Positions 14,813 to 28,865 of a DNA stretch of 33,924 nt are shown here, one piece after another; the stretch's first letter is position 1, and every line of letters begins with the position of its first letter. Location: IMG/VR virus record IMGVR_UViG_3300023174_000416, positions 1 through 33,924 of that record. One strand, given 5' to 3'. The position numbers and the translations under genes were made by a program. A model generated the notes under the pieces. It ran no database searches, was not told the DNA's origin, and worked only from the letters and a program-made list of their open reading frames with translations. The DNA comes from a virus.

Positions 14813-16201
14813 ATGCAACAATTTTTTTATGATGAACAAATACGTAGATTCTTGTTGCAATTCACAAGGATTTTTTCAAACTTTCAAGTAGAGTACAGCA
14901 AGGATGCTAACGGTGTAGCGGCGTTGCTACGTGTGCCTGTGCGCCACGGTGATGCCAGTAGACAAGCGCAGACTGTACTACAGAACAATTCAGCCAGCGC
15001 ATTACCGTCAACTCCGCTAATGACTTTTTACATCACTGAGCTTGAGTATGCAAGAGATCGAGTACAGGAACCTTATTTTGTTGAAAAGACTAGTGTGAGG
15101 CAACGGTACTATGATCAAGAGACAGAAACCTACGAAACTACACAAGGCAATGCGTTCACTGTAGAACGATTGATGCCTGTGCCGTTTAACTTGTCTATAC
15201 GATTGGATATTTGGACGTCTAACACCAATCAGAAACTACAGATATTGGAGCAAATATTAACACTGTTTAATCCAGCCTTGGAAATACAAAGCACAGACAA
15301 TTACTTAGATTGGACCAGTTTGAGCGTATGCGAATTAGAATCTGTAACTTGGACTTCAAGAAGCATTCCAATGGGCACCGAAGACCCTATAGACATTGCT
15401 TCCTTGTCTTTTACTTTGCCAATTTGGATATCGCCTCCTGCTAAAGTCAAGAAGTTGGGCGTGGTTCAAAAAATCATTGCTTCTATGTACGATGCTCAAG
15501 GCGATCTGCGCGAAGCTATAACCAACAACGATCTCTTGTTGGGCACTAGACAAAAATTCACACCTTACAATTATCAAGTGTTGCTGATTGGCAACCAGCT
15601 ACAGGTTCTACAGCCCAGTGCTGTGGTTCCTGGCGAAGGCACTATCAATCCTGACACTTCTCCGCCCAGCAATGTGATGTGGCATGCTGTGGTCAACATG
15701 TTTGGTGATTTACAAAACGGTATCAGCCAAGTAAGACTTGACAATCCGTTTGATGACACTATAATAGTAGGTACAGTGGCTTATCATCCCACAGACGATA
15801 GATTCTTATTGTTTACTGTGGATGAAGACACTTTACCACAGAACACATTACCGCCCGTGAATGCCATAGTAGACCCTCAACGCAACGGTCCTGGAGAAGG
15901 ACTACCGGCAGCTGCCGCTGGCCAGCGTTACTTACTGGTAGGGGATACTGGAGCTCCAGACTACAACAGTGGTGCCGCTGCCTGGACCGGAGTCAATGGA
16001 GAGATATTGTATGCCACAGCCAATGACATCATTGAGTATGATGGCGAGAAATGGAACATTGCTTTCTTACATACCAATGTTAGCAATGTGCAATATGTAA
16101 CCAATCTCACAACCAGCATTCAGTATCGTTGGGCAGACGCACAATGGTTAAAGAGCTATCAAGGACTTTATCCTGAAGGATCGTGGAGTTTGGTACTTTG
16201 A
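14813..16201 (+). CDS. 15: Tail completion / sheath stabiliser protein gp15-like, C-terminally extended
   Basis: 462 aa versus 272 in T4. gp15 forms the hexamer that caps the tail and contacts the neck. The first ~230 residues match: FFYDEQIRRFLLQFTRIFSNFQVEYS, VPVRHGDASRQ, LPLMTFYITELEYARDRVQEPYF-type strands, NAFTVERLMPVPFNLSIRLDIWTSNTNQKLQILEQILTLFNP, and SLSFTLPIWISPPAKVKKLGVVQKI. The remaining ~230 residues are an extension ending in a DUF2793-like module (GQRYLLVGDTG...AAAWTGVNGEILYATANDIIEYDGEKWNIAF) and a W-rich tail. Such small beta modules recur on phage virions and may bind surfaces. It directly follows gp14, so neck and tail cap are made together. Confidence 0.85.
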   Translation: MQQFFYDEQIRRFLLQFTRIFSNFQVEYSKDANGVAALLRVPVRHGDASRQAQTVLQNNSASALPSTPLMTFYITELEYARDRVQEPYFVEKTSVRQRYYDQETETYETTQGNAFTVERLMPVPFNLSIRLDIWTSNTNQKLQILEQILTLFNPALEIQSTDNYLDWTSLSVCELESVTWTSRSIPMGTEDPIDIASLSFTLPIWISPPAKVKKLGVVQKIIASMYDAQGDLREAITNNDLLLGTRQKFTPYNYQVLLIGNQLQVLQPSAVVPGEGTINPDTSPPSNVMWHAVVNMFGDLQNGISQVRLDNPFDDTIIVGTVAYHPTDDRFLLFTVDEDTLPQNTLPPVNAIVDPQRNGPGEGLPAAAAGQRYLLVGDTGAPDYNSGAAAWTGVNGEILYATANDIIEYDGEKWNIAFLHTNVSNVQYVTNLTTSIQYRWADAQWLKSYQGLYPEGSWSLVL

Positions 16202-16623
16202 ACGCAGTTGGTGTTTGGTTCTATTCAGTTACCACCAATCGGTATCTCTATCTGTTAAGAAACGATGATCGGCATCCCGGAACTTGGGGACTGCCAGGAG
16301 GCAAATGTCATCGTGATGAAACGCTGATGGAAACTATCCGTAGAGAGTGCATTGAAGAACTGGGATTTTGGCCTGAAGAAATAAAGCTGGTACCCATAGA
16401 AAAATTTACCAGCACAGACGGAAATTTTTCTTATCACACATTTTTTTGCAGTGTAGCCACGGAGTTTACACCCATACTTAATGATGAGCATCACGGTTGG
16501 GCCTGGATTGATTCAACCACATGGCCCAAACCATTGCATCCAGGACTGTGGTCAACTGTGAATTTTGAAGAAGTAAAACAAAAAATGATTACTGTACAAC
16601 AACAGTATCAAACATCACAGTGA
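16183..16623 (+). CDS. Nudix hydrolase
   Basis: 146 aa at most. Nudix enzymes cleave nucleoside diphosphates linked to another group, with Mg2+. The full Nudix box is present: G40-x5-E46-x7-R54-E55-x2-E58-E59-x-G61-F62. Ahead of it are RYLYLLRNDDRHPGTWGLPGG (substrate strand), as in MutT-like proteins. The start is uncertain: GTG at 16183 overlaps the gp15 end by 19 nt and has GAAGGA only 2 nt away, whereas TTG at 16198 (MNAVGVWFYS) has GGAG at 16185-16188 9 nt upstream and seems better. Substrate cannot be told; in phages related enzymes act on oxidised nucleotides, ADP-ribose, (p)ppGpp or RNA caps. It is in the gp14-gp15 operon and its end overlaps the convergent 224-aa gene by 16 bp. Confidence 0.88.
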   Translation: MEFGTLNAVGVWFYSVTTNRYLYLLRNDDRHPGTWGLPGGKCHRDETLMETIRRECIEELGFWPEEIKLVPIEKFTSTDGNFSYHTFFCSVATEFTPILNDEHHGWAWIDSTTWPKPLHPGLWSTVNFEEVKQKMITVQQQYQTSQ

Positions 16624-17282
16624 AGAACAAACTGTTGGTAAGTTAAAACTTCCGCATTTCTAAATGCACGCCACTCGTCATGTGGTGCGGCATGGTCAGT
16701 AACAAAATAAAACTTGGTATTGGGATAAGCTTCAAGTACCTGTTTAATATCAATTATATGTTTGTGATCAATGTGATGTTCGCTGGTTGTACCATCTACA
16801 CCTAACAAGAAAACTTCGTTGTGCCCATCAAACGCGGCAAGATACGCGGCAGCGGCTGGTGGCGCTAGTCTAAGACAATAAGGAATAAGATAAAACTCTC
16901 CTGGCATTTTCAAACAGTTAGTAGTCAAAGTATACACCACTGACTTTTCACTATAATTGGATGCAATAATTTCATTGAGAGTTGGAATATCATATTCAAC
17001 GCAAAAATCTAAATGCATTTTTTTCCAGGTGCCTTCACAGCCATAGGTCTGTAATTTTTTCTGTCCTAACAACCCGCCACCGTGATTGGCCACAGCGGTT
17101 ACCACATCTTCTCTTAGGCTATGCCCAGCACCGATCACAACTGCACGTCCAGAAATGTGTTGGTTGGCTATGGGGTTTTCAATGTATTCTTTTTCTGTGA
17201 TCTTTTGACCATCTCTGTAGATAATCTTCGTGATGACAAATTCGCCAGCGTAGTCTGCTCTATATCGTTCTTTGTTGATCAT
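16608..17282 (-). CDS. Putative sugar/nucleotide-type enzyme of the phage 'VxGxGxSxR' family (DUF115-like?)
   Basis: 224 aa. After ~40 N-terminal residues comes a Rossmann-like strand-loop, SGRAVVIGAGHSLREDVV, then a YGCEGTWKKMHLDFCVEYDIP segment giving a 'known or expected position' strand, then PPAAAAYLAAFDGHNEVFLLGVDGT, then a final YPNTKFYFVTDHAAPHDEWRAF and NAEVLTYQQF. The same order (VLGNGRSR, ...GLACLDGYTRIYLLGFDLGT, YPTRQFIRVQGPESAP, KFMEISEF) is seen in the 196-aa protein at 30263-30853, so they are paralogues. The layout recalls DUF115/MAF_flag10-type and glycosyltransferase-like enzymes, but I cannot prove the class. It overlaps the 414-aa fibre gene by 4 nt, suggesting joint translation and a role in fibre modification. 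Confidence 0.55.
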   Translation of the reverse strand: MINKERYRADYAGEFVITKIIYRDGQKITEKEYIENPIANQHISGRAVVIGAGHSLREDVVTAVANHGGGLLGQKKLQTYGCEGTWKKMHLDFCVEYDIPTLNEIIASNYSEKSVVYTLTTNCLKMPGEFYLIPYCLRLAPPAAAAYLAAFDGHNEVFLLGVDGTTSEHHIDHKHIIDIKQVLEAYPNTKFYFVTDHAAPHDEWRAFRNAEVLTYQQFVLHCDV

Positions 17283-18523
17283 AATCTTCCTACCATGATT
17301 TCAATAGTTCCTTCTTTGTCGTCTGAGTGGTTTTCCAAGGCTTTGCCTATCACGCATCCTGGAGCATAGTTTTCCATCTTGCAGGCTACTCCTGGAACGT
17401 CACTGCTTGCCAATAAGTCACCTTTACTAATTTTACCAATCACTCGGCAAGGAACTCGTCCTAGCAACGCTACATTGACTGCATTTTCAACTTCCAGCCC
17501 ACGATTCATTAACACACCCGGATTTTCAGATACAGTACCAGCAATAGATGTCTGGCATGCGTCAGTACTTTGAGTGACTTCTTTGACTCCACCGATGACC
17601 AATACTGTGCCCACTGGATATTCAGCATCTGCTTCGTAACGTTCTGCAACGTCAGCATATTGTGCCGAAGTGGCTTTGGCAAACACAGTGTTAAAGTATG
17701 TTGATGATGTTCCAATATTGCCAACTCCGTTGGCTTGACCGTTTCGTATATCAGCGCCTATTACTAAGTTTCCACCAAACCAACTGTTTCCGCCGTTGAC
17801 AAACAGTGCATAAGAGTTAGTAATGGTCATATTGGTGCCAGCAACAGGAGCACCTGCCACATACAGTGTGCCTGCATTGGTTGTAGTTACCGATCCATTG
17901 GTGGCAGCCAATGTTGGCTGTGCTATGGCATTGATATGATTGGTTGCGGCTGTGCCAGCTGCCGGAGTGCCTGAATCTGTATATGTTGCCGCATTGATTC
18001 GTAGACCAATACCATTGGTAGTCCAGCTTGAAGCTGTTTCGTTACCTCCTATGGTCACAGCGGCTGTGGTGGGTGCTGTACCAAGTCCAACTTGGCCAGT
18101 AACTGCTAGATTAGCGGATACATTGGCCTCAGTGGCTGTAAATGTTGTATTGGTAACACCACCTACGTTGGCGCGAATGTTGCCACCTGAGGCAATCACA
18201 GTCATTGATGATGTGCCATTGGCTATGCTAGTGGCATCAACTGTGGCCCAGGCTACACCTGAACCTGTACTCTGTAAAAACTGTCCAGTGGAGCCTGTGC
18301 CACCATTGGCGGTCAATGTACCTGTAAGCACAGCACTGCTTAATGTTTTATTTGTCAGTGTCTGAGTAGCAGTGGTTCCAACTCCGCTGAATCCGCCTAG
18401 TGTGGCTCCATCGTGGACAACTACCACCTTGTTAGTGGTATCAACTGTGATTTCACCCAACGCACCTGCAAAGCTGGCTGTTTGTGAGCTGGATCCTCGA
18501 CGGTATTGTATCTGGGTTGACAT
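17279..18523 (-). CDS. Tail fibre protein with shared C-terminal domain (fibre A, 414 aa)
   Basis: 414 aa, Ala/Gly/Thr/Asn-rich and beta-structured. N-terminus TQIQYRRGSSSQTASFAGALGEITVDTTNKVVVVHDGAT is the usual baseplate-attachment-type start of phage fibres. Central region has TSIANGTSSMTVIASGGNIRANVGG repeats. Residues 261-414 form the C-terminal domain shared with the 1203- and 1418-aa fibres: NGQANGVGNIG..YFNTVFAKATSAQYADVAE...GTVLVIGG..EVT...AGTVSENPGVLMN...VALLGRVPCRV...KGDLLASS...GCVIGKALE...IEIMVG. This domain resembles in layout the intramolecular chaperone/cleavage (peptidase G2-like) ends of fibres, but I cannot confirm it. Start ATG 18523 has AGGA 7 nt upstream and a late box. 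Confidence 0.8.
   Translation of the reverse strand: MSTQIQYRRGSSSQTASFAGALGEITVDTTNKVVVVHDGATLGGFSGVGTTATQTLTNKTLSSAVLTGTLTANGGTGSTGQFLQSTGSGVAWATVDATSIANGTSSMTVIASGGNIRANVGGVTNTTFTATEANVSANLAVTGQVGLGTAPTTAAVTIGGNETASSWTTNGIGLRINAATYTDSGTPAAGTAATNHINAIAQPTLAATNGSVTTTNAGTLYVAGAPVAGTNMTITNSYALFVNGGNSWFGGNLVIGADIRNGQANGVGNIGTSSTYFNTVFAKATSAQYADVAERYEADAEYPVGTVLVIGGVKEVTQSTDACQTSIAGTVSENPGVLMNRGLEVENAVNVALLGRVPCRVIGKISKGDLLASSDVPGVACKMENYAPGCVIGKALENHSDDKEGTIEIMVGRL
17282..17743 (-). repeat. Shared fibre C-terminal domain, copy in fibre A
   Basis: Codons 261-414 of the 414-aa fibre. Paralogous to 20931-21386 and 24612-25070; the three differ in the variable middle but keep AKATSAQYADLAE, GRVP and KGDLL. 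Confidence 0.85.
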
Positions 18524-18547: not shown

Positions 18548-20848
18548 TTAGTTTATAACCGATCTATCGCTGGTGCGGCGCCAGTTAGTGCCATCACTAA
18601 ATGCTGTTATAGCACCACCAGTGGCGTTGCTAACATAGATAAATTGGGCTGGTATTGTTGCGCTGGGCAATGTTGACACTGTAAAGCTCGGTAGCACCAG
18701 CTGAGTCGGGTAAAAAACACCTGAAGTTACAATCTCTCCGAGATCTGATTGGCTAGTTACTGCTTCTGTGACCAATCCAAGATCGTCTGAAAGTGTAACT
18801 ACTTCTGTCACTGTACCAAAATCAGCACCATCAACAAAAATTTCGCTGCCTGCACCAGAAGTTGCTATGGTTAATGTATCTGTTGTTGGGTCAGCAACTA
18901 TAGTGATACCAGAACCAGCATTAAACGTAAATGTATCATTGATTGAATCTGCAACAATGGTGTTACCGCTGGCCACAGCAAATGATCTAAACGTTTCAAT
19001 TCCTGATAAATTACGTCCATTGCCTAGAATGTTACCACCAAACACATTGCCTGTGGCATACAAATTTCCGGTAACATTACCACCAGCAGTTGAGAACACT
19101 GCTATATTGGGTGTGCCGCCAATGGTGATTGCTAAGTTACCGCCAGAAGTACCAATATTGGCCTCACTGGTTCCATTGAAGACTTTGGTTGTGTTATATC
19201 CACTGGCAAATGTGATGTTAGCCAGTAGGTAGTTACCTGTGATATTGCCAGCAGTAGTTAGGTTGCCGCCTGTGACATTGCCTGTGGCCGTGACTTGTCC
19301 AGCAGTGCCCAAATTACCTACATTGGCGTTGCCGGTAGCAGAAATTGTGTTTGCTTCAAGACCACCAACTATGAGATTACCATAACTGTTTACAGTGACT
19401 ACCTCTCCTGAAACACTGACATTGGTTGCGGCAATGAGTTTGCCAGCTGAGTTGTCGTAGCCAATAAAGGCCGACTGTTCTGATGTGGTGTAGTACCAAA
19501 GTTGTTCACCGCGATCTTTGCCGTCATTGGTTGTGAGTGGAGTGTTGTTTGGTCCGCGACCTAGTCCAATGATTGGGTCAACAACGTTCAAATCTGTGAC
19601 GTTGACCGAAATAACATTGCCACTTACAGTAAGATTGCCTGCTATAGTAGCATTACCACTGGTAGTCAATGTACCAGTGGATACTGTACCTGTTGTAATT
19701 AAGTTACCACCTGTGACGTTACCTGTCACTCCCAGTGTGCCTGTGATGTTAGCCCCTGCTGTGCTGAATACGGCTACGTTGGAAACTCCACCAATGGTGA
19801 TGTTGGCGTTGCCCCCAGAAGTACCAATATTGGCTTCACTGGTGCCGTTGAAGAGTCGGGTGGTATTATACCCACTGGCAAATGTAATGTTGGCCAGCAA
19901 ATAATTACCTGTTATGTTACCAGATGCTGTTACCTGGCCACCTGTGACCAGGTTGCCACCTGTGACGTTGCCTGTGGCAACTATCAGTCCTGCTGTACCA
20001 AGATTACCCACATTGGCATTACCAGTCACACTTAATGTAGTTCCAATAGAACCAAGTCCTGCTGTGATTAAATTTCCACCAGTAATGTTGCCTGTGGCTG
20101 TGATTGTGGATGCACTAATATCCGGAGTTGTACCTGACAGTACAGTCTGCGCACCTTGTGGGTTAGTAAGAATTAGCGATGTAGCATTGGCTGAGATTTG
20201 AGCATTGCCAAGATATATTGTGGAGTTTGATAGCCAAATATCTCGCCAACGATTGGTAGTGTTGCCCAGATCATAAGTGACGTTGGCGCCAGGATTAACG
20301 TTCCCCCAAAAAGTTGGATTATCTCTAACAGCAAATGTTATAGTGTCTGTGGCAGCATTGCCTGTTATAATAATATTGTTGCCAGTGGAAAAAGTAACTG
20401 TGCCTGTGGCAGAATTGGCAACTACAGAAGTACCGTTGGCTGAAATAGTTCCAAATGCATTACCTGTGTTGATTTCAAATGTAAGTGCTGTGGTACCTAT
20501 GATTATAGGGTCATTGGTTGTGAGTTTCCAACTTGTATCAGCATAGGTAGAACCTTCGGTGACCATGACAATGGTGCCCGAATCAAGCTCGCCGGTTGCA
20601 TTGGTGTCTGTGGATCTAATCCAGGTTCCGTTGCTTCCGGTGCCTAGTACACTTACTATATAGATACCGTTCTGACTGCCTGTGCTTTGCCCTGACACCA
20701 GAATGCGATCATTCAAGCTCAAGGTAACTCCGTCAACCACTGTAGGAGCACCGCCCGAAAGAGTAATATTGCTAGTGGTTATCGCCCGCACTGACTGTTT
20801 ATAGTCAATGTCGTATATCTGCGCGGCACGAGGTCTAGTTAATCCCAT
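18548..20848 (-). CDS. Tail fibre protein (fibre B, 766 aa)
   Basis: 766 aa. N-terminal module QSVRAITTSNITLSGGAPTVVDGVTLSLNDRILVSGQSTGSQNGIYIV...WIRSTDTNATGELDSGTIVMVTEG is a common start of phage fibres. Then come GN-rich repeats of the form TGNVTGGNLVTGG. At about residues 420-490 is the shared module NVTDLNVVDPIIGLGRGPNNTPLTTNDGKDRGEQLWYYTTSEQSAFIGYDNSAGKLIAATNV. The C-terminus TLPSATIPAQFIYVSNATGGAITAFSDGTNWRRTSDR is a known fibre-end motif and differs from the three other large fibres, so B lacks the ~153-aa end domain. A late-promoter box and AAGGT precede the ATG. It probably forms beta-helical trimers at the tail and may carry receptor binding. Confidence 0.8.
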   Translation of the reverse strand: MGLTRPRAAQIYDIDYKQSVRAITTSNITLSGGAPTVVDGVTLSLNDRILVSGQSTGSQNGIYIVSVLGTGSNGTWIRSTDTNATGELDSGTIVMVTEGSTYADTSWKLTTNDPIIIGTTALTFEINTGNAFGTISANGTSVVANSATGTVTFSTGNNIIITGNAATDTITFAVRDNPTFWGNVNPGANVTYDLGNTTNRWRDIWLSNSTIYLGNAQISANATSLILTNPQGAQTVLSGTTPDISASTITATGNITGGNLITAGLGSIGTTLSVTGNANVGNLGTAGLIVATGNVTGGNLVTGGQVTASGNITGNYLLANITFASGYNTTRLFNGTSEANIGTSGGNANITIGGVSNVAVFSTAGANITGTLGVTGNVTGGNLITTGTVSTGTLTTSGNATIAGNLTVSGNVISVNVTDLNVVDPIIGLGRGPNNTPLTTNDGKDRGEQLWYYTTSEQSAFIGYDNSAGKLIAATNVSVSGEVVTVNSYGNLIVGGLEANTISATGNANVGNLGTAGQVTATGNVTGGNLTTAGNITGNYLLANITFASGYNTTKVFNGTSEANIGTSGGNLAITIGGTPNIAVFSTAGGNVTGNLYATGNVFGGNILGNGRNLSGIETFRSFAVASGNTIVADSINDTFTFNAGSGITIVADPTTDTLTIATSGAGSEIFVDGADFGTVTEVVTLSDDLGLVTEAVTSQSDLGEIVTSGVFYPTQLVLPSFTVSTLPSATIPAQFIYVSNATGGAITAFSDGTNWRRTSDRSVIN

Positions 20849-20927: not shown

Positions 20928-23900
20928 TTAAACTCGTCCTACAACGACCTCAATCACTCCGTCTTGACCGTCAAAGTCTGCTAGAGCTTTACCAATTATG
21001 GTACCTGCACGAGCTTCGTTGTTGGCGCGACCTCGACCGTCACCAGCGGAAACAATTAAATCACCCTTGCGTATTTGTCCTGTAACTTTGGTAGGAACAC
21101 GACCTTGTAGTGCCACGGCAGCCACGTGTGATCCAGTTTGTCCCGAGTTCATCAAATAACTAGGGTTAGTAGAAACTACGCCAGCTACACGAGTACAGTC
21201 TTCAATGTCGCATACTGTGACTTCTTTGGCTCCACCAAAACACAGCACTGTACCTGGTTCATATGTGGCATCTGCTTCGTAGTTTTCTGCCAAGTCAGCG
21301 TATTGTGCTGATGTGGCTTTGGCAAATACAGTATTAAAATATCCTGTGGCACTACCAATGTTACCCACCCCGTTGGCTTGACCGTTGAGCAGGTCTTTGT
21401 CAGCAATGATCACTCCAGTACCATTGGGACTCAGTTTGATGTTGCCATTACTACTGGTTTGGATGTGTAGTGCGCCCGTGTCAATGATGTTGCCACTAAG
21501 TGTCACATCTCCTGTGATCACTGTACCAGTTGTGGTAAACACAGCTATGTTGCTGACACCGCCCACTGTGATATTGGCGTTGCCGTTTTGTGTTTGAATG
21601 TCTAATGATGTAGTGCCGTTTTGGACTCTGTCACCCAGGATGTTACCACTGAGACTGGCGTTGCCTGTAACAGTAAGGTTACCCGTGATAGTTACTCCTG
21701 AGCTAATAACATCTACCACATTGGCTGTGCCACCTGCACTGATTGTTACATTAGAATTGTTGAATGTACGCACATTGGCTGTGCCATTGGCAATACTTGT
21801 AGTATCAACGTTGTTGGAACTCAATGTACCTGGAGTGGTACCATCTGGTCCAAAGAAACTCAATGTGTTGCCTGAAGTATTCTTGAGAACAATGTTACCC
21901 AGTGTAATTGAGTTACCAGTAACAAATAAGTCTTTCCAACGTGCTGTTGAGCTACCTAAATTATAAAGGCCGTTTGCTGTGGGCAATACGTTACCAGTTA
22001 TAGCAACGTAAGTGGTTGAATCTGAAACTTCAATTACTGCTGATCCATTGGCGTTGGTAATACCTTTAACGGATGTAGTTGTAACAATTTCACGAACTTC
22101 AATCAAGTCACCTAGAGCAGGTGCTTCAGTAAATGTCAGTGTTGTACCTGCCACAGCATAAGCTGTCACTGGAACCTGTAAAATACCGTTGATAGAAACT
22201 ATACAGCTGGCTGTGGTATAACCAGAGTTGATTGTAAACGCTACTGTTGTACCGTCACCGTTGAATGTTTGACTTTGTACCACTGTAAATGTAGTACCAG
22301 TTGACTGCCACTGTGTGCCATCATAGAATTCCAAACTGGATGTGGTGCTGTTGTAGCGTACCATACCTGCAACACCCACTGATGGACGTTGTGCTGAGTT
22401 ACCCACAGGAGCAAGGATAGAATTTGTAAAGTTAAATGCTACGCCAGCATTCACTGTTTGTGTTGAGCTACCAAAACTGGCAGTGTGTGTACCTGCATCA
22501 ACATAGAACACGTTGGGTGTAACATCGCCATCTACTGCAAAGTCAACGTCAGCATCGCTGGCATTCACTGTGATTCTACCACTGCGACTGTCAATGTTGG
22601 TTACATACAAGCTACCGTTGACAATGTCAAAACCTTGTGTGCTGGCCACAGTGCGCACATTGGCTGAACCAGTGTTACCTACCCAAGTCAATACGTTGCC
22701 GTTGGTTGAACCCAGCAACAAATTACCAATGCCAGAACTGCCTGGTCCTGCTTCGTCGCTGGCCACTACATAGACATAACCAGTGTTGTTGGTGGCATGT
22801 TCTGTGAAGAACTGATCATGGATACCAGTGTGAGTGTTGCTGGTGATACCCATGTTGATAAAGTATGTGCTATCGTCGCCGTTGTTGGCTGTGGCCACAT
22901 AGTCTGTGGATGCCGCATTGCCACCATTGATGTTTTCAAAGTTGACTTGACTGTATGAGTTGGCATTACCTGCAAACTGGATGACAACGTTGGATCCCAG
23001 TGTGGTAAATCCAGGTACACCACCAAATATTGCGGCGTTACCTGTCACAGCATTACCGTAGAATATACCAGATGTATTGGCAATAACGTTGGATGTTGCT
23101 GTGAGCGTGCCAAGTATGTCCACGTTGCCTGTGAAGTAACCTGTGGTGGCAGCTAGTCTATTGGTAACATTGACATTGCCTGCATTTACGTTACCAGTGG
23201 TTGTGATAATTCCGGCGCCAGCTGATAAATTACCACCTGTGATATTACCTGTGGCATTGACTGTTTGGCTAAAGACGTTGCCTGCTTGGAATGTGCCGTA
23301 CTGCAATACGTTAATAACGTTGTTGCCGCTAAAATTCACGCTGGTGGCAGCTACTAAGTTACCAGTGCTGTTGTCCCAAAATACCGAAGCATTACCTGTA
23401 CTGCCAGACTTGTAGTATTCCATGTAGATACCACGGTCCATACCATCATCTGTGGTAAGCGGAGCACCGTTGGGACCAGTACCCATGATAATCACAGGAT
23501 CTTCTACACGCAAATCATCAATGTTGATGTAAGTTAAGTTGCCTTGAACAATTAAGTTACCGCCAATCAGCGCATTGCCAGTTGTGGTCAATGTTGCTCC
23601 AGAAATTGCGGCGTTGGAAATTAAGTTACCACCAGTGATGTTACCAGTGGCATTGATTGTGGTTGCCGCTGATATTGATGCATTGGAAACCAAGTTACCA
23701 CCAGTGATATTACCAGTGGCATTGACTGTGGTGGCTGCTGATATGCTGGCATTGCTTACAAGATTACCACCTGTGATGTTACCTGTGGCATTGATTAGAC
23801 CAGCTGTACCAATGTTGCCCAAGGTAGCATTGCCTGTTACACTCAGTGTAGTTGCCGCAGAAATTGCGGCGTTGGAAATTAAGTTACCACCTGAAATGTT

Positions 23901-24539
23901 ACCTGTGGCATTGATTAGACCAGCTGTGCTGATATTGCCCAGCGTGGCGTTGCCTGTTACACTCAGTGTAGTTGCGGCGCTGATAGCCGCATTAGAAATT
24001 AAGTTACCACCCGATATGTTACCGGTAGCATTGATCTGTCCTGAGGCGGAAATATTTGCTAACGAAATATTTCCTGTGAGCGAAGTTGTGCCTGTAACTG
24101 TCAAGTTGCCTGTGACAGCGGCATTTAATGTTCTAAAGCTGGCATAGCTGGCAATAGTTACAGTGGTATTGGTTGTGGTGTCATTGGTATAAACAGTGAC
24201 GAACTCCCCTAACGATTCGTCCCAAACAAACGCAATATTTTGGCTTGTGCCACGTTCACCAATAAAACCAATGTCCAAACTTGGCGAACCTGTTTGATTG
24301 GCTGCCAAATACAGTATGGGATCTTCAATAACAACACTGACTGTGTCAATGGTTGTGGTTTGACCGTTGACTGTTAAGTTGCCCGTGACAGTAAGATCTG
24401 ATCCATAAACCAGGCTGTTGGCAATTTTGCCAGACGTAATTGAGTAGTCTTGCAGTTTTGCAGCCGCGTTAATACCTAAGTAAAGATTACCGGCTGATGA
24501 GTCAGTAACCTGGTTATTTTTAATCCGTGTAATTGGCAT
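20928..24539 (-). CDS. Large tail fibre protein with shared C-terminal domain (fibre C, 1203 aa)
   Basis: 1203 aa. N-terminus MPITRIKNNQVTDSSAGNLYLGINAAAKLQDYSITSGKIANSLVYGSDLTVTGNL and DIGFIGERGTSQNIAFVWDES (residues ~1-120) are typical of aquatic phage fibres. Next are tandem GNISGGNL repeats (~150-340), the shared DPVIIMGTGPNGAPLTTDDGMDRG module (~345-420), a module with STDYVATANNGDDSTYFINMGITSNTH (~540-690) that also occurs in fibre D, a GDGTTVAFTINSGYTT..IVSINGILQVPVTAYAVAG module (~770-860), and SFFGPDGTTPGTLSSNNVDT. The end domain (1052-1203) is shared with fibres A and D. GGAG lies 11 nt before the ATG, with a late box further up. Likely homotrimeric receptor-binding fibre. Confidence 0.8.
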   Translation of the reverse strand: MPITRIKNNQVTDSSAGNLYLGINAAAKLQDYSITSGKIANSLVYGSDLTVTGNLTVNGQTTTIDTVSVVIEDPILYLAANQTGSPSLDIGFIGERGTSQNIAFVWDESLGEFVTVYTNDTTTNTTVTIASYASFRTLNAAVTGNLTVTGTTSLTGNISLANISASGQINATGNISGGNLISNAAISAATTLSVTGNATLGNISTAGLINATGNISGGNLISNAAISAATTLSVTGNATLGNIGTAGLINATGNITGGNLVSNASISAATTVNATGNITGGNLVSNASISAATTINATGNITGGNLISNAAISGATLTTTGNALIGGNLIVQGNLTYINIDDLRVEDPVIIMGTGPNGAPLTTDDGMDRGIYMEYYKSGSTGNASVFWDNSTGNLVAATSVNFSGNNVINVLQYGTFQAGNVFSQTVNATGNITGGNLSAGAGIITTTGNVNAGNVNVTNRLAATTGYFTGNVDILGTLTATSNVIANTSGIFYGNAVTGNAAIFGGVPGFTTLGSNVVIQFAGNANSYSQVNFENINGGNAASTDYVATANNGDDSTYFINMGITSNTHTGIHDQFFTEHATNNTGYVYVVASDEAGPGSSGIGNLLLGSTNGNVLTWVGNTGSANVRTVASTQGFDIVNGSLYVTNIDSRSGRITVNASDADVDFAVDGDVTPNVFYVDAGTHTASFGSSTQTVNAGVAFNFTNSILAPVGNSAQRPSVGVAGMVRYNSTTSSLEFYDGTQWQSTGTTFTVVQSQTFNGDGTTVAFTINSGYTTASCIVSINGILQVPVTAYAVAGTTLTFTEAPALGDLIEVREIVTTTSVKGITNANGSAVIEVSDSTTYVAITGNVLPTANGLYNLGSSTARWKDLFVTGNSITLGNIVLKNTSGNTLSFFGPDGTTPGTLSSNNVDTTSIANGTANVRTFNNSNVTISAGGTANVVDVISSGVTITGNLTVTGNASLSGNILGDRVQNGTTSLDIQTQNGNANITVGGVSNIAVFTTTGTVITGDVTLSGNIIDTGALHIQTSSNGNIKLSPNGTGVIIADKDLLNGQANGVGNIGSATGYFNTVFAKATSAQYADLAENYEADATYEPGTVLCFGGAKEVTVCDIEDCTRVAGVVSTNPSYLMNSGQTGSHVAAVALQGRVPTKVTGQIRKGDLIVSAGDGRGRANNEARAGTIIGKALADFDGQDGVIEVVVGRV
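20931..21386 (-). repeat. Shared fibre C-terminal domain, copy in fibre C
   Basis: Codons 1052-1203 of fibre C: NGQANGVGNIGSATGYFNTVFAKATSAQYADLAE...VAGVVSTNPSYLMN...GRVPTKVTG..RKGDLIVS...IGKALADF. Paralogue of the ends of fibres A and D. Confidence 0.85.
23610..24040 (-). repeat. In-frame coding repeat array in fibre C (69-bp and 120-bp units)
   Basis: The TTACC of the GGN codons recurs at 23626, 23695, 23764, 23884 and 24004: two steps of 69 bp and two of 120 bp, all multiples of 3. The protein unit is ATGNITGGNLVSNASISAATT (21-23 aa), or the same plus LSVTGNATLGNISTAGL (40 aa). Confidence 0.85.
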
Positions 24540-24565
24540 AAATCATGTCGCTCCGCTTTATGATT

Positions 24566-24573
24566 ATATTTAG
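24566..24573 (-). promoter_or_regulatory. Late-promoter box CTAAATAT upstream of fibre C
   Basis: TAAATA is 27 nt before the ATG at 24539. It lies in the 69-bp gap after the fibre D stop, in which I see no convincing terminator. Confidence 0.6.
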
Positions 24574-24608
24574 CGGCAAGTTAAAAAATAGTTTCGTGTG
24601 TGGTTTTT

Positions 24609-27600
24609 TTACCAGGCACCCACTACAACCATGATTTTATGGCTGCCTGCAGGGGCCGATTCCAGTGCCTTGCCCACTATAACACCCGGTAGCCAGTCTG
24701 TGTTTTTAAGTTTTTCAGCGTGTCCTGCTGTGGAACTTGTGGTCAGCACATCACCTTTGTTCACTGGGCCCACAACCCAGCAAGGTACTCGCCCTGCCAT
24801 GGCAATGGGCACAGAATTGGCTTGCTCAGCATTCATTAGATAGGCAGGATCTGTGGATATAATACCTGCTAGGCGCTGATCTGCATATTGCGTTGATTGT
24901 GTAATTTCGTTGTCGCCAGCAAATACCATTACAGTGCCTGCGTCGTGGACTTGATCGCACTCAAACTGTTCTGCTAAGTCTGCGTACTGTGCTGATGTGG
25001 CCTTGGCAAACATAGTGTTAAAATACGTACTTGATGAGCCAATATTGCCCACTCCGTTGGCTTGACCATTGCGTAAATCAGATGTGATTACCACAACCCC
25101 TGTACCATTGGGTGCTAGGGTGATGTTTCCATTGCTGGTAGTACTGATGCCTAATTGACCGCCTGAATCAACAATGTTACCACTGAGGTTAATGTTGCCA
25201 CTGACATTGGCATTGCTACTGACGTTGATATTGCCGCCAACGTTGGCATTTGTTGATGTAACAATAAGAACATTAGCAGTTCCTCCAGCACTGATTGTTA
25301 CCGATCCAGAGCTCAGTGTCTGAACATTGGATGTTCCGTTGGATATTTGTGTGGTGTCAACGTTGTTGGAACTCAGTGTGCCTGGAGTAGTGCCATCGGG
25401 TCCAAAAAATGACAGGGTATTTCCTGAAGTATTTTTGAGTATAATATTGCCCAGCGTGATGGAGTTTCCGCTAAAGTATCCATCTTTCCAACGCAAAGTT
25501 GGACTGCCAAGATTGTAAGTAACATTGGCAGTGGGCAACAGATTGCCAGTGATGTTGACCTGGGATGCATTGGCTTGTACTCCAACGATTGAATTGCCTG
25601 TAGTATTAGTGATTTCTGTTACTGTTTGTATCTGTGTCAAGAAACGAACTTCAACAGCATCTGACACTTGCGGTGCTTCAGAAAATGTGATTACGTTACC
25701 GACAACTCCATATGATACATCTGGAATTTGGCTCACACCGTTAATGCTGACTAAAATGCCACCAGATGTGGTGTCCTCATTGAGGGTAAATGCTACTTGA
25801 GATCCATCGCCGTTGATAACCTGGCTGGTCAATATAGCTAAATCTTGTCCAACTACATCCCACTGCGTGCCGTCCCACACTTCTAACACCAGTGTGGTGC
25901 TGTTAAAACGCACAGCACCTTGATCTGGTGATGCAGGTCTTTGTGCTGTGTTGCCCACAGGCATGGTCAGTGCAGTGGTTGAACCGATCTGTGTCACTCC
26001 GGTTGGTCCCGGAGTTACTAATATGTTGCCTGATGTTGCTGTGATAGAAAGATTGGCATTGCTGGTAATGGTTGTACCATCAATGCGAATATTGTCAATG
26101 TTTGCTGAGCCTATCAGTACAAGATTGGCACCATCAAAGGTTAAATTGGCTGTGTCAACTAGATAATCATTGGCACCAACATAGACTATCCTGTTGGTAG
26201 TTAAACTCGTAACTTGAGCGTTGGCACCAGTAACCAATGCGTTGCTGACAATGTTTCCACCAGTGATGTTACCTGTTGCTGAAATTGTAGTAGCGGCACT
26301 GATTGAAGCATTGGAAACCAAGTTACCACCAGTGATGTTACCAGTGGCATTGATTGTGGTTGCCGCTGATATTGATGCATTGGATACCAAGTTACCACCT
26401 GTGACATTGCCTGTGGCTGAAATTTGTCCTGTCGTTGATATATTACCAAAACTAACATTTCCAACTATGGTGGCCGATTCGCCGTAGATATTTCCAGCTT
26501 GGAAAGTTCCAAACTGATTGATTGTGACTATTTCATTGTTTAAGGTAACATTGCTGGCAATGATCATGTTGCCAGATGAGTTATCCCATCCAACAAATGC
26601 ATTACCTTGAGCAGTGGTATAATAGGTTAATAGTGTGCCGCGATCCTTGCCATCATTGGTGATCAATGCATTGCCGTTGGCTCCGCCACCAAGTTGTATA
26701 ATAGGATCTTCAACACGTAAGTCGTCAATGTTGATGTAGGTTATGTTGCCTTGGACTGTGAGATTTCCAGCAACTAGAGCATCACCGCTTACACTCAGAG
26801 TAGTTCCTGTGATCCTTGCATTGCTTACAAGATTACCACCTGTGACATTTCCAGTGGCTGATACAGTTGTGGCCGCTGATATTGATGCATTGGAAACCAA
26901 GTTACCACCAGTGATGTTACCAGTGGCATTGACTGTGGTGGCTGCACTGATTGAGGCATTGGAAACTAAGTTACCACCGGTGACGTTACCAGTGGCTGAT
27001 ACAGTTGTGGCAGCTGATATTGACGCATTGCTTACAAGATTACCACCAGTGATGTTACCAGTGGCATTGATTGTGGTTGCCGCTGATATTGATGCATTGG
27101 AAACCAAGTTACCACCTGTGATATTTCCAGTGGCGCTGAGTTGGCCCGAAGTTGATATGTTACCAAAACTAACATTGCCAGTTATTAACGCAGACTGTGC
27201 ATAGATATTTCCAACCTGCCAGGTTCCAAACTGATTGACAGTGACTATCTCGTTGGCTATAGACACATCCACTGCGGCTATAAGATTTCCAGCTGAATTA
27301 TCGTAACCCATGAAGGCAGATTTTTCTGCACCATTGTAATACCAAAGTTGCTCACCGCGATCTTTACCATCATTGCTAACCAATGGAGTGTTGTTGGCTC
27401 CTCGGCCCATGGATATAATTGGATCTTCTACAGCCAGGGTTGTAACGTTTTCGTAAACTAAATCGCCATTGATTGTTAAGTTGCCATCGATAATAGCGTT
27501 GCCACCTGCATAGATATCTTTAGTAACATTGACATAGTTTCCGCTGACATTACCATTGGCTATGACATTGTTTCCGGTGATGTTGCCAACTGCATTGATC

Positions 27601-28865
27601 AAAGCGGCACTGTAGAGATTACCAACAAACACATCAGAGCTGACATTGGCTGTGCCTGTCAACACCAATGCAGTTCCATTAAAAGTAAGATTGTTTGTTG
27701 TAGCTACATTTTTATTGGAATCTGTATAAAGTACACGGTTAGCTGTAGTGCCGGTTATGATTAGATTACCAACCGATGTATTGCCTGTGATATTAGCAGT
27801 GGTTCCAAAGATACCAGCATTGGATATTAAATTGCCGCCTGTGATGTTGCCACCAACCGTGAGTACGTTTCCAATACTAATATTGTTGGAGGTAGTATTT
27901 CCCAACACCGTGGCATTGTTTACAGTGATATTTCCAGTGATTTGAACATTACCTATCACGGCACCACTGGATATAATGTTGCCGCCTGTGATGTTGCCTG
28001 TAACGTTTAAAACACCTGTAATATTTGATCCAGCAGTTGTAAGTTCTTGTATTACATTGGCCTGTGCAGTGTTTCCAACAAACATCTTGATACGACCATC
28101 TGTGGAACCCAGTATTAAGTTACCCGGCCCAGTGTTTCCAAGATTGTTGCCTACACCGACCACATATAGATAAGCATCATTGGCACTGGAAGTATCGCCA
28201 AAAAACTCTGGATCAACATGATTATTTCCAGCAATACCCATATTTAAAAAGTAGGTATTGTCATCTCCATTGTTGGCAGTGGCAATGTAGTCTGTGGACG
28301 AAAGATTACCTGCATTGATGTTTTGAAAATTCAATTGTGCATAGCTATTGACATTGCCAGCAAACTGCATAATCACATTAGAACCCAGTGGAGTAAATCC
28401 AGGAACACCGGCAAAAGCGGCGTTGATCCCTGTAATAGTATTGCCGTAGAATATACCCGAGTTGGCGTAAACTACACCAACGGTGGCATTTAAATTGCCC
28501 AATACATCAACGTTGCCAGTAAAGTAACCTGTAGAAGAGTAGACCCTTGATACTACATTGACATTGCCAGCATCAACGTTGCCAGACACATCAACAGTGG
28601 TTCCATCATAGGTAAATCCAGAGTTAGTGAGAGCCAGTTGACTAGCACCGGCATAAAATACACCATTGGCAGTGGCAGATGTAATACGCACATTTGAAGC
28701 GTTGGCTACACCTATGACATTGAACTCATCCTGGGGTGTGCCTGTGAGGATACCAACGCGATTGTTGGTCACGTCAAAATAGGCTAGATTACCTTGTATT
28801 GATAGATTAGCGCCACGTTGCAGGTTGTCCTGCAGTATGTTGCCAGAAACTCGTTGAATCGCCAT
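24609..28865 (-). CDS. Very large tail fibre protein with shared C-terminal domain (fibre D, 1418 aa)
   Basis: 1418 aa, the largest protein here. N-terminus MAIQRVSGNILQDNLQRGANLSIQGNLAYFDVTNNRVGI. The STDYIATANNGDDNTYFLNMGIAGNNH module is at ~150-290. Two or three copies of the DPIIxxGxGxN...NDGKDRG module follow (~485-570, ~700-790), separated by arrays of 23-aa GNITGGNLVSNASISAATT units. Then come an AQRPASPDQGAVRFNSTTLVLEVWDGTQW plus GDGSQVAFTLNEDTTSGGILVSINGVSQIPDVSYGVVG module (~1000-1100), SFFGPDGTTPGTLSSNNVDT, and the end domain (1266-1418) shared with fibres A and C. AAAGGG lies 6 nt before the ATG and a late box just upstream. Probably the long distal fibre or a second receptor-binding fibre. 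Confidence 0.8.
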   Translation of the reverse strand: MAIQRVSGNILQDNLQRGANLSIQGNLAYFDVTNNRVGILTGTPQDEFNVIGVANASNVRITSATANGVFYAGASQLALTNSGFTYDGTTVDVSGNVDAGNVNVVSRVYSSTGYFTGNVDVLGNLNATVGVVYANSGIFYGNTITGINAAFAGVPGFTPLGSNVIMQFAGNVNSYAQLNFQNINAGNLSSTDYIATANNGDDNTYFLNMGIAGNNHVDPEFFGDTSSANDAYLYVVGVGNNLGNTGPGNLILGSTDGRIKMFVGNTAQANVIQELTTAGSNITGVLNVTGNITGGNIISSGAVIGNVQITGNITVNNATVLGNTTSNNISIGNVLTVGGNITGGNLISNAGIFGTTANITGNTSVGNLIITGTTANRVLYTDSNKNVATTNNLTFNGTALVLTGTANVSSDVFVGNLYSAALINAVGNITGNNVIANGNVSGNYVNVTKDIYAGGNAIIDGNLTINGDLVYENVTTLAVEDPIISMGRGANNTPLVSNDGKDRGEQLWYYNGAEKSAFMGYDNSAGNLIAAVDVSIANEIVTVNQFGTWQVGNIYAQSALITGNVSFGNISTSGQLSATGNITGGNLVSNASISAATTINATGNITGGNLVSNASISAATTVSATGNVTGGNLVSNASISAATTVNATGNITGGNLVSNASISAATTVSATGNVTGGNLVSNARITGTTLSVSGDALVAGNLTVQGNITYINIDDLRVEDPIIQLGGGANGNALITNDGKDRGTLLTYYTTAQGNAFVGWDNSSGNMIIASNVTLNNEIVTINQFGTFQAGNIYGESATIVGNVSFGNISTTGQISATGNVTGGNLVSNASISAATTINATGNITGGNLVSNASISAATTISATGNITGGNIVSNALVTGANAQVTSLTTNRIVYVGANDYLVDTANLTFDGANLVLIGSANIDNIRIDGTTITSNANLSITATSGNILVTPGPTGVTQIGSTTALTMPVGNTAQRPASPDQGAVRFNSTTLVLEVWDGTQWDVVGQDLAILTSQVINGDGSQVAFTLNEDTTSGGILVSINGVSQIPDVSYGVVGNVITFSEAPQVSDAVEVRFLTQIQTVTEITNTTGNSIVGVQANASQVNITGNLLPTANVTYNLGSPTLRWKDGYFSGNSITLGNIILKNTSGNTLSFFGPDGTTPGTLSSNNVDTTQISNGTSNVQTLSSGSVTISAGGTANVLIVTSTNANVGGNINVSSNANVSGNINLSGNIVDSGGQLGISTTSNGNITLAPNGTGVVVITSDLRNGQANGVGNIGSSSTYFNTMFAKATSAQYADLAEQFECDQVHDAGTVMVFAGDNEITQSTQYADQRLAGIISTDPAYLMNAEQANSVPIAMAGRVPCWVVGPVNKGDVLTTSSTAGHAEKLKNTDWLPGVIVGKALESAPAGSHKIMVVVGAW
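24612..25070 (-). repeat. Shared fibre C-terminal domain, copy in fibre D
   Basis: Codons 1266-1418 of fibre D: NGQANGVGNIGSSSTYFNTMFAKATSAQYADLAE...LAGIISTDPAYLMN...GRVPCWVVG..NKGDVLTTS...VGKALE. Paralogue of the ends of fibres A and C. Confidence 0.85.
26242..26415 (-). repeat. In-frame 69-bp repeat array in fibre D (proximal to the end domain)
   Basis: Three units with anchor positions 26254, 26323 and 26392, exactly 69 bp apart; protein unit ATGNITGGNLVSNASISAATT. 26323-26384 is identical over 62 bp to 27040-27101 and to 23626-23687. Confidence 0.85.
26821..27135 (-). repeat. In-frame 69-bp repeat array in fibre D (central)
   Basis: Five units with anchors at 26833, 26902, 26971, 27040 and 27109, exactly 69 bp apart. 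Protein units alternate ATGNVTGGNL and ATGNITGGNL, each followed by VSNASISAATT or a variant of it. 27040-27116 is identical to 23626-23702 of fibre C. Confidence 0.85.

Follow-up and report, generated by a model that had tools for sequence, protein, structure and literature searches.

A 69-bp repeat unit is shared, in three nearly identical copies, by three repeat arrays in two old paralogous tail-fibre genes of an uncultured phage, and its recent copying among these arrays by homologous recombination over a short tract (gene conversion) is the best reading of the pattern, with a probability of roughly 0.82. The window, i.e., the whole stretch of 33,924 bases that was analysed, is a metagenomic contig (IMG/VR virus record IMGVR_UViG_3300023174_000416). 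The recent common descent of the shared unit is secure, and conversion rather than unequal crossover is its probable origin; the recombination enzyme, the direction in which the unit was copied and a possible influence on host range are all putative.

The phage is a member of a clade of contractile-tail jumbo phages (jumbo myoviruses). Its sheath protein matches PHROG tail-sheath families and, among isolates, comes closest to those of Sinorhizobium phage Phosso and the PA5oct-like Pseudomonas phages (~45% identity); the related IMG/VR contigs include some of 316-353 kb (among them L001, of 343 kb). A nucleotide search with the fibre region gave no match among isolated phages. The fibre cluster, as delimited by the ORF list, lies on the minus strand and comprises fibre gene D (24609..28865; 1418 aa, with two repeat arrays and an orthologue in L001), fibre gene C (20928..24539; 1203 aa, with an array in its N-terminal third and orthologues in L108, L109 and L111-L116), the fibre-like gene B (18548-20848) and the fibre-like gene A (17279-18523), the last with an N-terminal Mtd_N domain (PF18454, E 4e-13). 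C and D encode repeat-built tail-fibre rods and are old paralogues, sharing ~35% amino-acid identity over 1346 columns, and their synonymous codon identity (~0.42 outside the arrays and 0.37-0.40 in whole-length HSPs) is about the level given by codon usage alone.

Other features of the cluster are also worth recording. A 170-nt C-terminal module occurs near the ends of A, C and D (17574-17743, 21217-21386 and 24901-25070, respectively) at 71-76% identity, overlapping matches to PHROG 22593, and an ORF adjoining the cluster (16183-16623) carries a Nudix-hydrolase-like sequence, recognised by eye (GLPGGK...RECIEELG). At the start of C, 47 bp covering the upstream region and first codons (24511-24557) are identical to L001, whereas the genes of the two phages are otherwise ~73-80% identical at the DNA level; matches of at least 85% to this stretch were seen in L001 only (three loci on one contig). 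Likewise, the last 14 codons of C (20928-20969; GQDGVIEVVVGRV and the stop) are identical in DNA in L001, L111 and L038/L116, phages that otherwise show ~77-82% identity, and may be a conserved DNA patch at the end of the fibre gene.

All repeat features are on the minus strand. The array of C (23586..24032) consists of two 40-aa units (120 bp) followed by three 23-aa units (69 bp), the first array of D (D1; 26793..27137) has five 23-aa units and the second (D2; 26214..26420) has three. The preliminary description had reported an in-frame unit spacing of 69 bp (or 120 bp), together with a 77-bp identity between C (23626..23702) and D (27040..27116, in D1) and a 62-bp match of 26323-26384; direct comparison bore out each of these, the 77-bp identity letter for letter. 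The 62-bp match holds against both copies, and the spacing, in frame throughout, is that of the 23-aa units (69 bp) and of a 40-aa unit in C (120 bp). No exact repeat in the window is longer than the 77-bp tract, which is made up of the unit NLVSNASISAATTINATGNITGG plus 8 bp and whose two copies lie 3414 bp (1138 codons) apart. The D2 copy (26320..26391) carries a substitution of its own, and its match to C alone extends to 65 bp (23623-23687 = 26320-26384). In register, the central unit agrees at 69/69 positions between C and D1 and at 68/69 between D2 and each of the others; the feature is a one-unit trio in three copies and not a 77-bp tract of two genes. The surroundings have diverged, as had been claimed, since the flanking units in the same register agree at only 46/69 and 32/69 (C-D1; 46-67%), 40/69 and 36/69 (C-D2) and 55/69 and 47/69 (D1-D2). 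The identity thus has sharp boundaries of one unit. Further, the trio is an outlier: the next-best pair among the 105 unit pairs of the window reaches 60/69, and the best of 765 pairs between the window and its relatives reaches 59/69.

Chance agreement was assessed by codon permutation, in which codons were swapped among units only where unit column and amino acid coincide, so that the protein, the codon bias and any codon preference tied to a column are preserved. Across 5000 permutations the longest match averaged 27 bp (99.9th percentile 50, maximum 54) and never reached 77 bp (0/5000), an earlier run of 500 attained 65 bp once, and drawing codons from gene-wide usage gave matches of 32 bp at most. 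The joint probability of agreement over 25 codons, given the amino acids and independent codon draws, is ~8e-13. Therefore, recent common descent of the trio unit can be regarded as secure. "Recent" is to be taken in a relative sense: with no mismatch in 77 bp, the two copies could still have diverged by up to ~4% per site after the copying event (95% Poisson bound).

Tract identity thus stands far above both the flanks and the codon-level expectation, as would be expected of gene conversion. The earlier reading of "recent exchange or gene conversion" is accordingly well supported by the outlying trio, the diverged flanks, synonymous sites near background elsewhere and relatives whose C genes carry a D-type module. 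At the scale of whole arrays, the mean synonymous identity of all window units (~0.50) is barely above that between the window and L001 (0.45-0.49), so that the arrays as a whole have not been homogenised and exchange is sporadic; full concerted evolution, with units of one genome clearly more alike than orthologous ones, was not observed in this comparison. Repeats in related fibre genes have often been copied recently, as is shown by identical tracts of 92-188 bp (188, 123, 104, 93 and 92 bp) within single fibre genes of L116, L009, L118, L113 and L119. The longest of these (~2.7 units) stands twice in one fibre gene of L116 (L116:539 and 1871). Between genes, the next longest tracts in other contigs measure 43 and 38 bp, making the 77 bp of the window the longest seen.

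As for the machinery, the window is a 34-kb fragment and enzyme content was taken from relatives: a RecA-family protein is encoded in five of five large related records, and a Rad52-type annealase was not found in five related records. In the proposed mechanism, the in-frame 69-bp units would act as a source of short homologous tracts, and homologous recombination, probably via the phage's own RecA-family recombinase, would have copied one unit among the three arrays. Such copying would amount to non-reciprocal short-tract conversion, leaving unit number and frame unchanged. On a longer time scale, exchange at the same array boundaries may have moved whole modules between fibre genes, yielding the C/D chimeras of relatives.

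Unequal crossover or insertion, by which one array would have gained a further unit (a rise in copy number) instead of having one replaced, is a possible but unlikely course of events. Array lengths do differ among relatives (D of L001 has an extra run of four units, and C of L116 is built as 5+2+4), and long multi-unit duplicated tracts lie inside single genes of relatives. Against this, the C tandem array has three units and D1 has five in the window, L001 and L109 alike, none of the compared phages being a close pre-event strain (the searches may omit records very near the window, and close strains could exist). This conservation (3-3-3 and 5-5-5) fits unit replacement, i.e., conversion, better than insertion. 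The suggestion of the preliminary description that units can be added or lost hence holds in part: the differing arrays of L001 and L116 speak for it, while the constancy of C and D1 in three phages and the lack of any array copy-number change among L109, L110 and L112 speak against it. The latter three contigs belong to one phage and are nearly identical (99.77-99.96%), and no exchange in progress was seen in any pair of strains. Two further differences were noted among them. Compared with L109 and L112, the D orthologue of L110 lacks 83 bp (L110:9730-9814); this deletion breaks the frame, lies at no repeat, and is either a strain variant unrelated to repeats or an assembly error. L109 differs from L112 and L110 by a cluster of 15 mismatches (L109:3191-3356) that suggests a local recombination event, the three contigs being >99.7% identical elsewhere.

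It is improbable that the unit came into these genes from outside, from the fibre of a co-infecting phage. Patchwork sharing of fibre modules among these phages would accommodate such an import, yet none of the compared relatives has a unit above the 59/69 given above, and the 26-base core pattern finds matches in a few distant contigs only. An assembly artefact, with misjoined or collapsed repeats, is very improbable: the sequence does come from a metagenomic assembly, and a related contig (3300044956_000431) ends ~540 bases before the first copy of the 188-bp repeat in its C gene, but L001, a 343-kb contig assembled independently, is collinear in gene order and in the C sequence flanking the tract on both sides, the 77-bp repeat is shorter than the usual short read, and the third copy bears its own substitution. 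Protein selection and codon bias could in principle preserve the identity of the unit with exchange unneeded, since many phages conserve the 23-aa motif and exact array matches of 24-39 bp occur even between distant contigs. This is hardly credible given that neither set of permutations (maxima of 54 and 65 bp) came up to 77 bp, and that other units of almost the same protein sequence differ at no fewer than 9 of 69 bases. Finally, a diversity-generating retroelement (DGR) or another programmed mechanism that copies sequence into the fibre is called to mind by the Mtd N-terminal domain of the neighbouring gene A, a domain that also occurs in a DGR-diversified protein, but the RVT_1 reverse transcriptase was not found in the window (a fragment) or in five large related records and the copies are identical and not adenine-mutagenised, so that such an element is exceedingly unlikely.

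Conversion between paralogous fibres finds a counterpart in natural chimeras whose type changes at the repeated motif, and L001 and L116 provide them in their C genes. Both genes have C-type N-termini, 93-98% identical to the window C over 83 residues, and carry a D-type module directly after the array. In the window, the module that follows the C array (23295..23549, minus strand; VQGNLTYINIDDLRVEDP...) is of C type. The corresponding module of L001 and L116 is 76-84% identical to D modules, whereas its identity to the C-type modules (window, L109 and L113) is 52-65%; individually, that of L001 shows 82% to both D modules and 60% to the window C, and that of L116 shows 76-84% to D and 58% to the window C. 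A module tree separates the C and D types with clade support of 100/99. Further downstream, the C gene of L001 reverts to C type (up to 33-38 of 40 residues per segment compared). Thus, the C/D chimeras for which the preliminary description had proposed to look were found in the contigs of L001 and L116, and its claim of units swapped between fibres is supported at an evolutionary scale. The chimeras are old exchanges and not strain-level ones, but their type switches at the array; the array itself is the putative crossover point.

Structural comparison was less informative. A sequence search of the PDB gave nothing usable, with two weak matches only, both outside the array. The AlphaFold model of the D arrays has a mean pLDDT of 57 (~66-77 in the array part), and the regularly spaced strands predicted for the array part are suggestive of a beta-solenoid rod. 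Foldseek with this model found no PDB match at E <=0.001 and, among viral predictions, three matches to phage proteins of unknown role. In view of the low pLDDT and this outcome, the model was not counted as evidence.

Fibre mosaicism through repeats is already known. In the passages that cite Tetart et al. 1998 (PMC6027323, PMC10408124), recombination at short conserved motifs is described as an established route to fibre mosaicism in T-even phages. The likeness to the gp37/gp38 adhesins, as portrayed there, is that short conserved repeated motifs in fibre genes act as recombination sites that move modules; the difference is that in the window the paralogous fibre genes of one genome are involved, via 69-bp rod units. 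In lytic coliphages, conserved DNA patches of 20-95 bp have been proposed to aid homologous recombination around fibre/tailspike modules (PMC10408124), but those motifs flank the receptor-binding region and were compared across phage genera, whereas the tract in the window is the repeat unit itself. Among isolates, cyanophages (Kyanoviridae; structural proteins annotated with a "YadA domain") show tblastn similarity of 30-41% identity over the array and neighbouring modules. The three cyanophage isolates that were checked have exact repeats of <=32 bp in this region, compared with 77 bp in the window; long tracts may hence be a feature of this clade and not of all such fibres, three isolates being too few for certainty. 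PA5oct-like Pseudomonas jumbo phages and Sinorhizobium phage Phosso match fibre D at ~32% identity in its C-terminal part only, with the array outside the match.

No direct precedent for gene conversion or concerted evolution of fibre genes was found in the open-access papers searched. The window is a new, cleanly resolved example of repeat-mediated fibre mosaicism in an uncultured jumbo-phage clade, the exchange being between paralogous fibres within a single genome. A bolder extension, which we consider rather unlikely, is that the 69-bp units form a standing cassette system, in which the alikeness of the DNA would be selected for ongoing, unit-precise exchange and the fibres of one phage would share a pool of rods and modules, including in-frame D-C fusions in cis. 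Fibres determine which bacteria a phage infects. The clade displays recent unit-sized exchange between two fibre genes as well as older, fixed chimeras that switch type at the edge of the array, and together these provide a concrete, testable route to fibre diversification without a programmed mutator.
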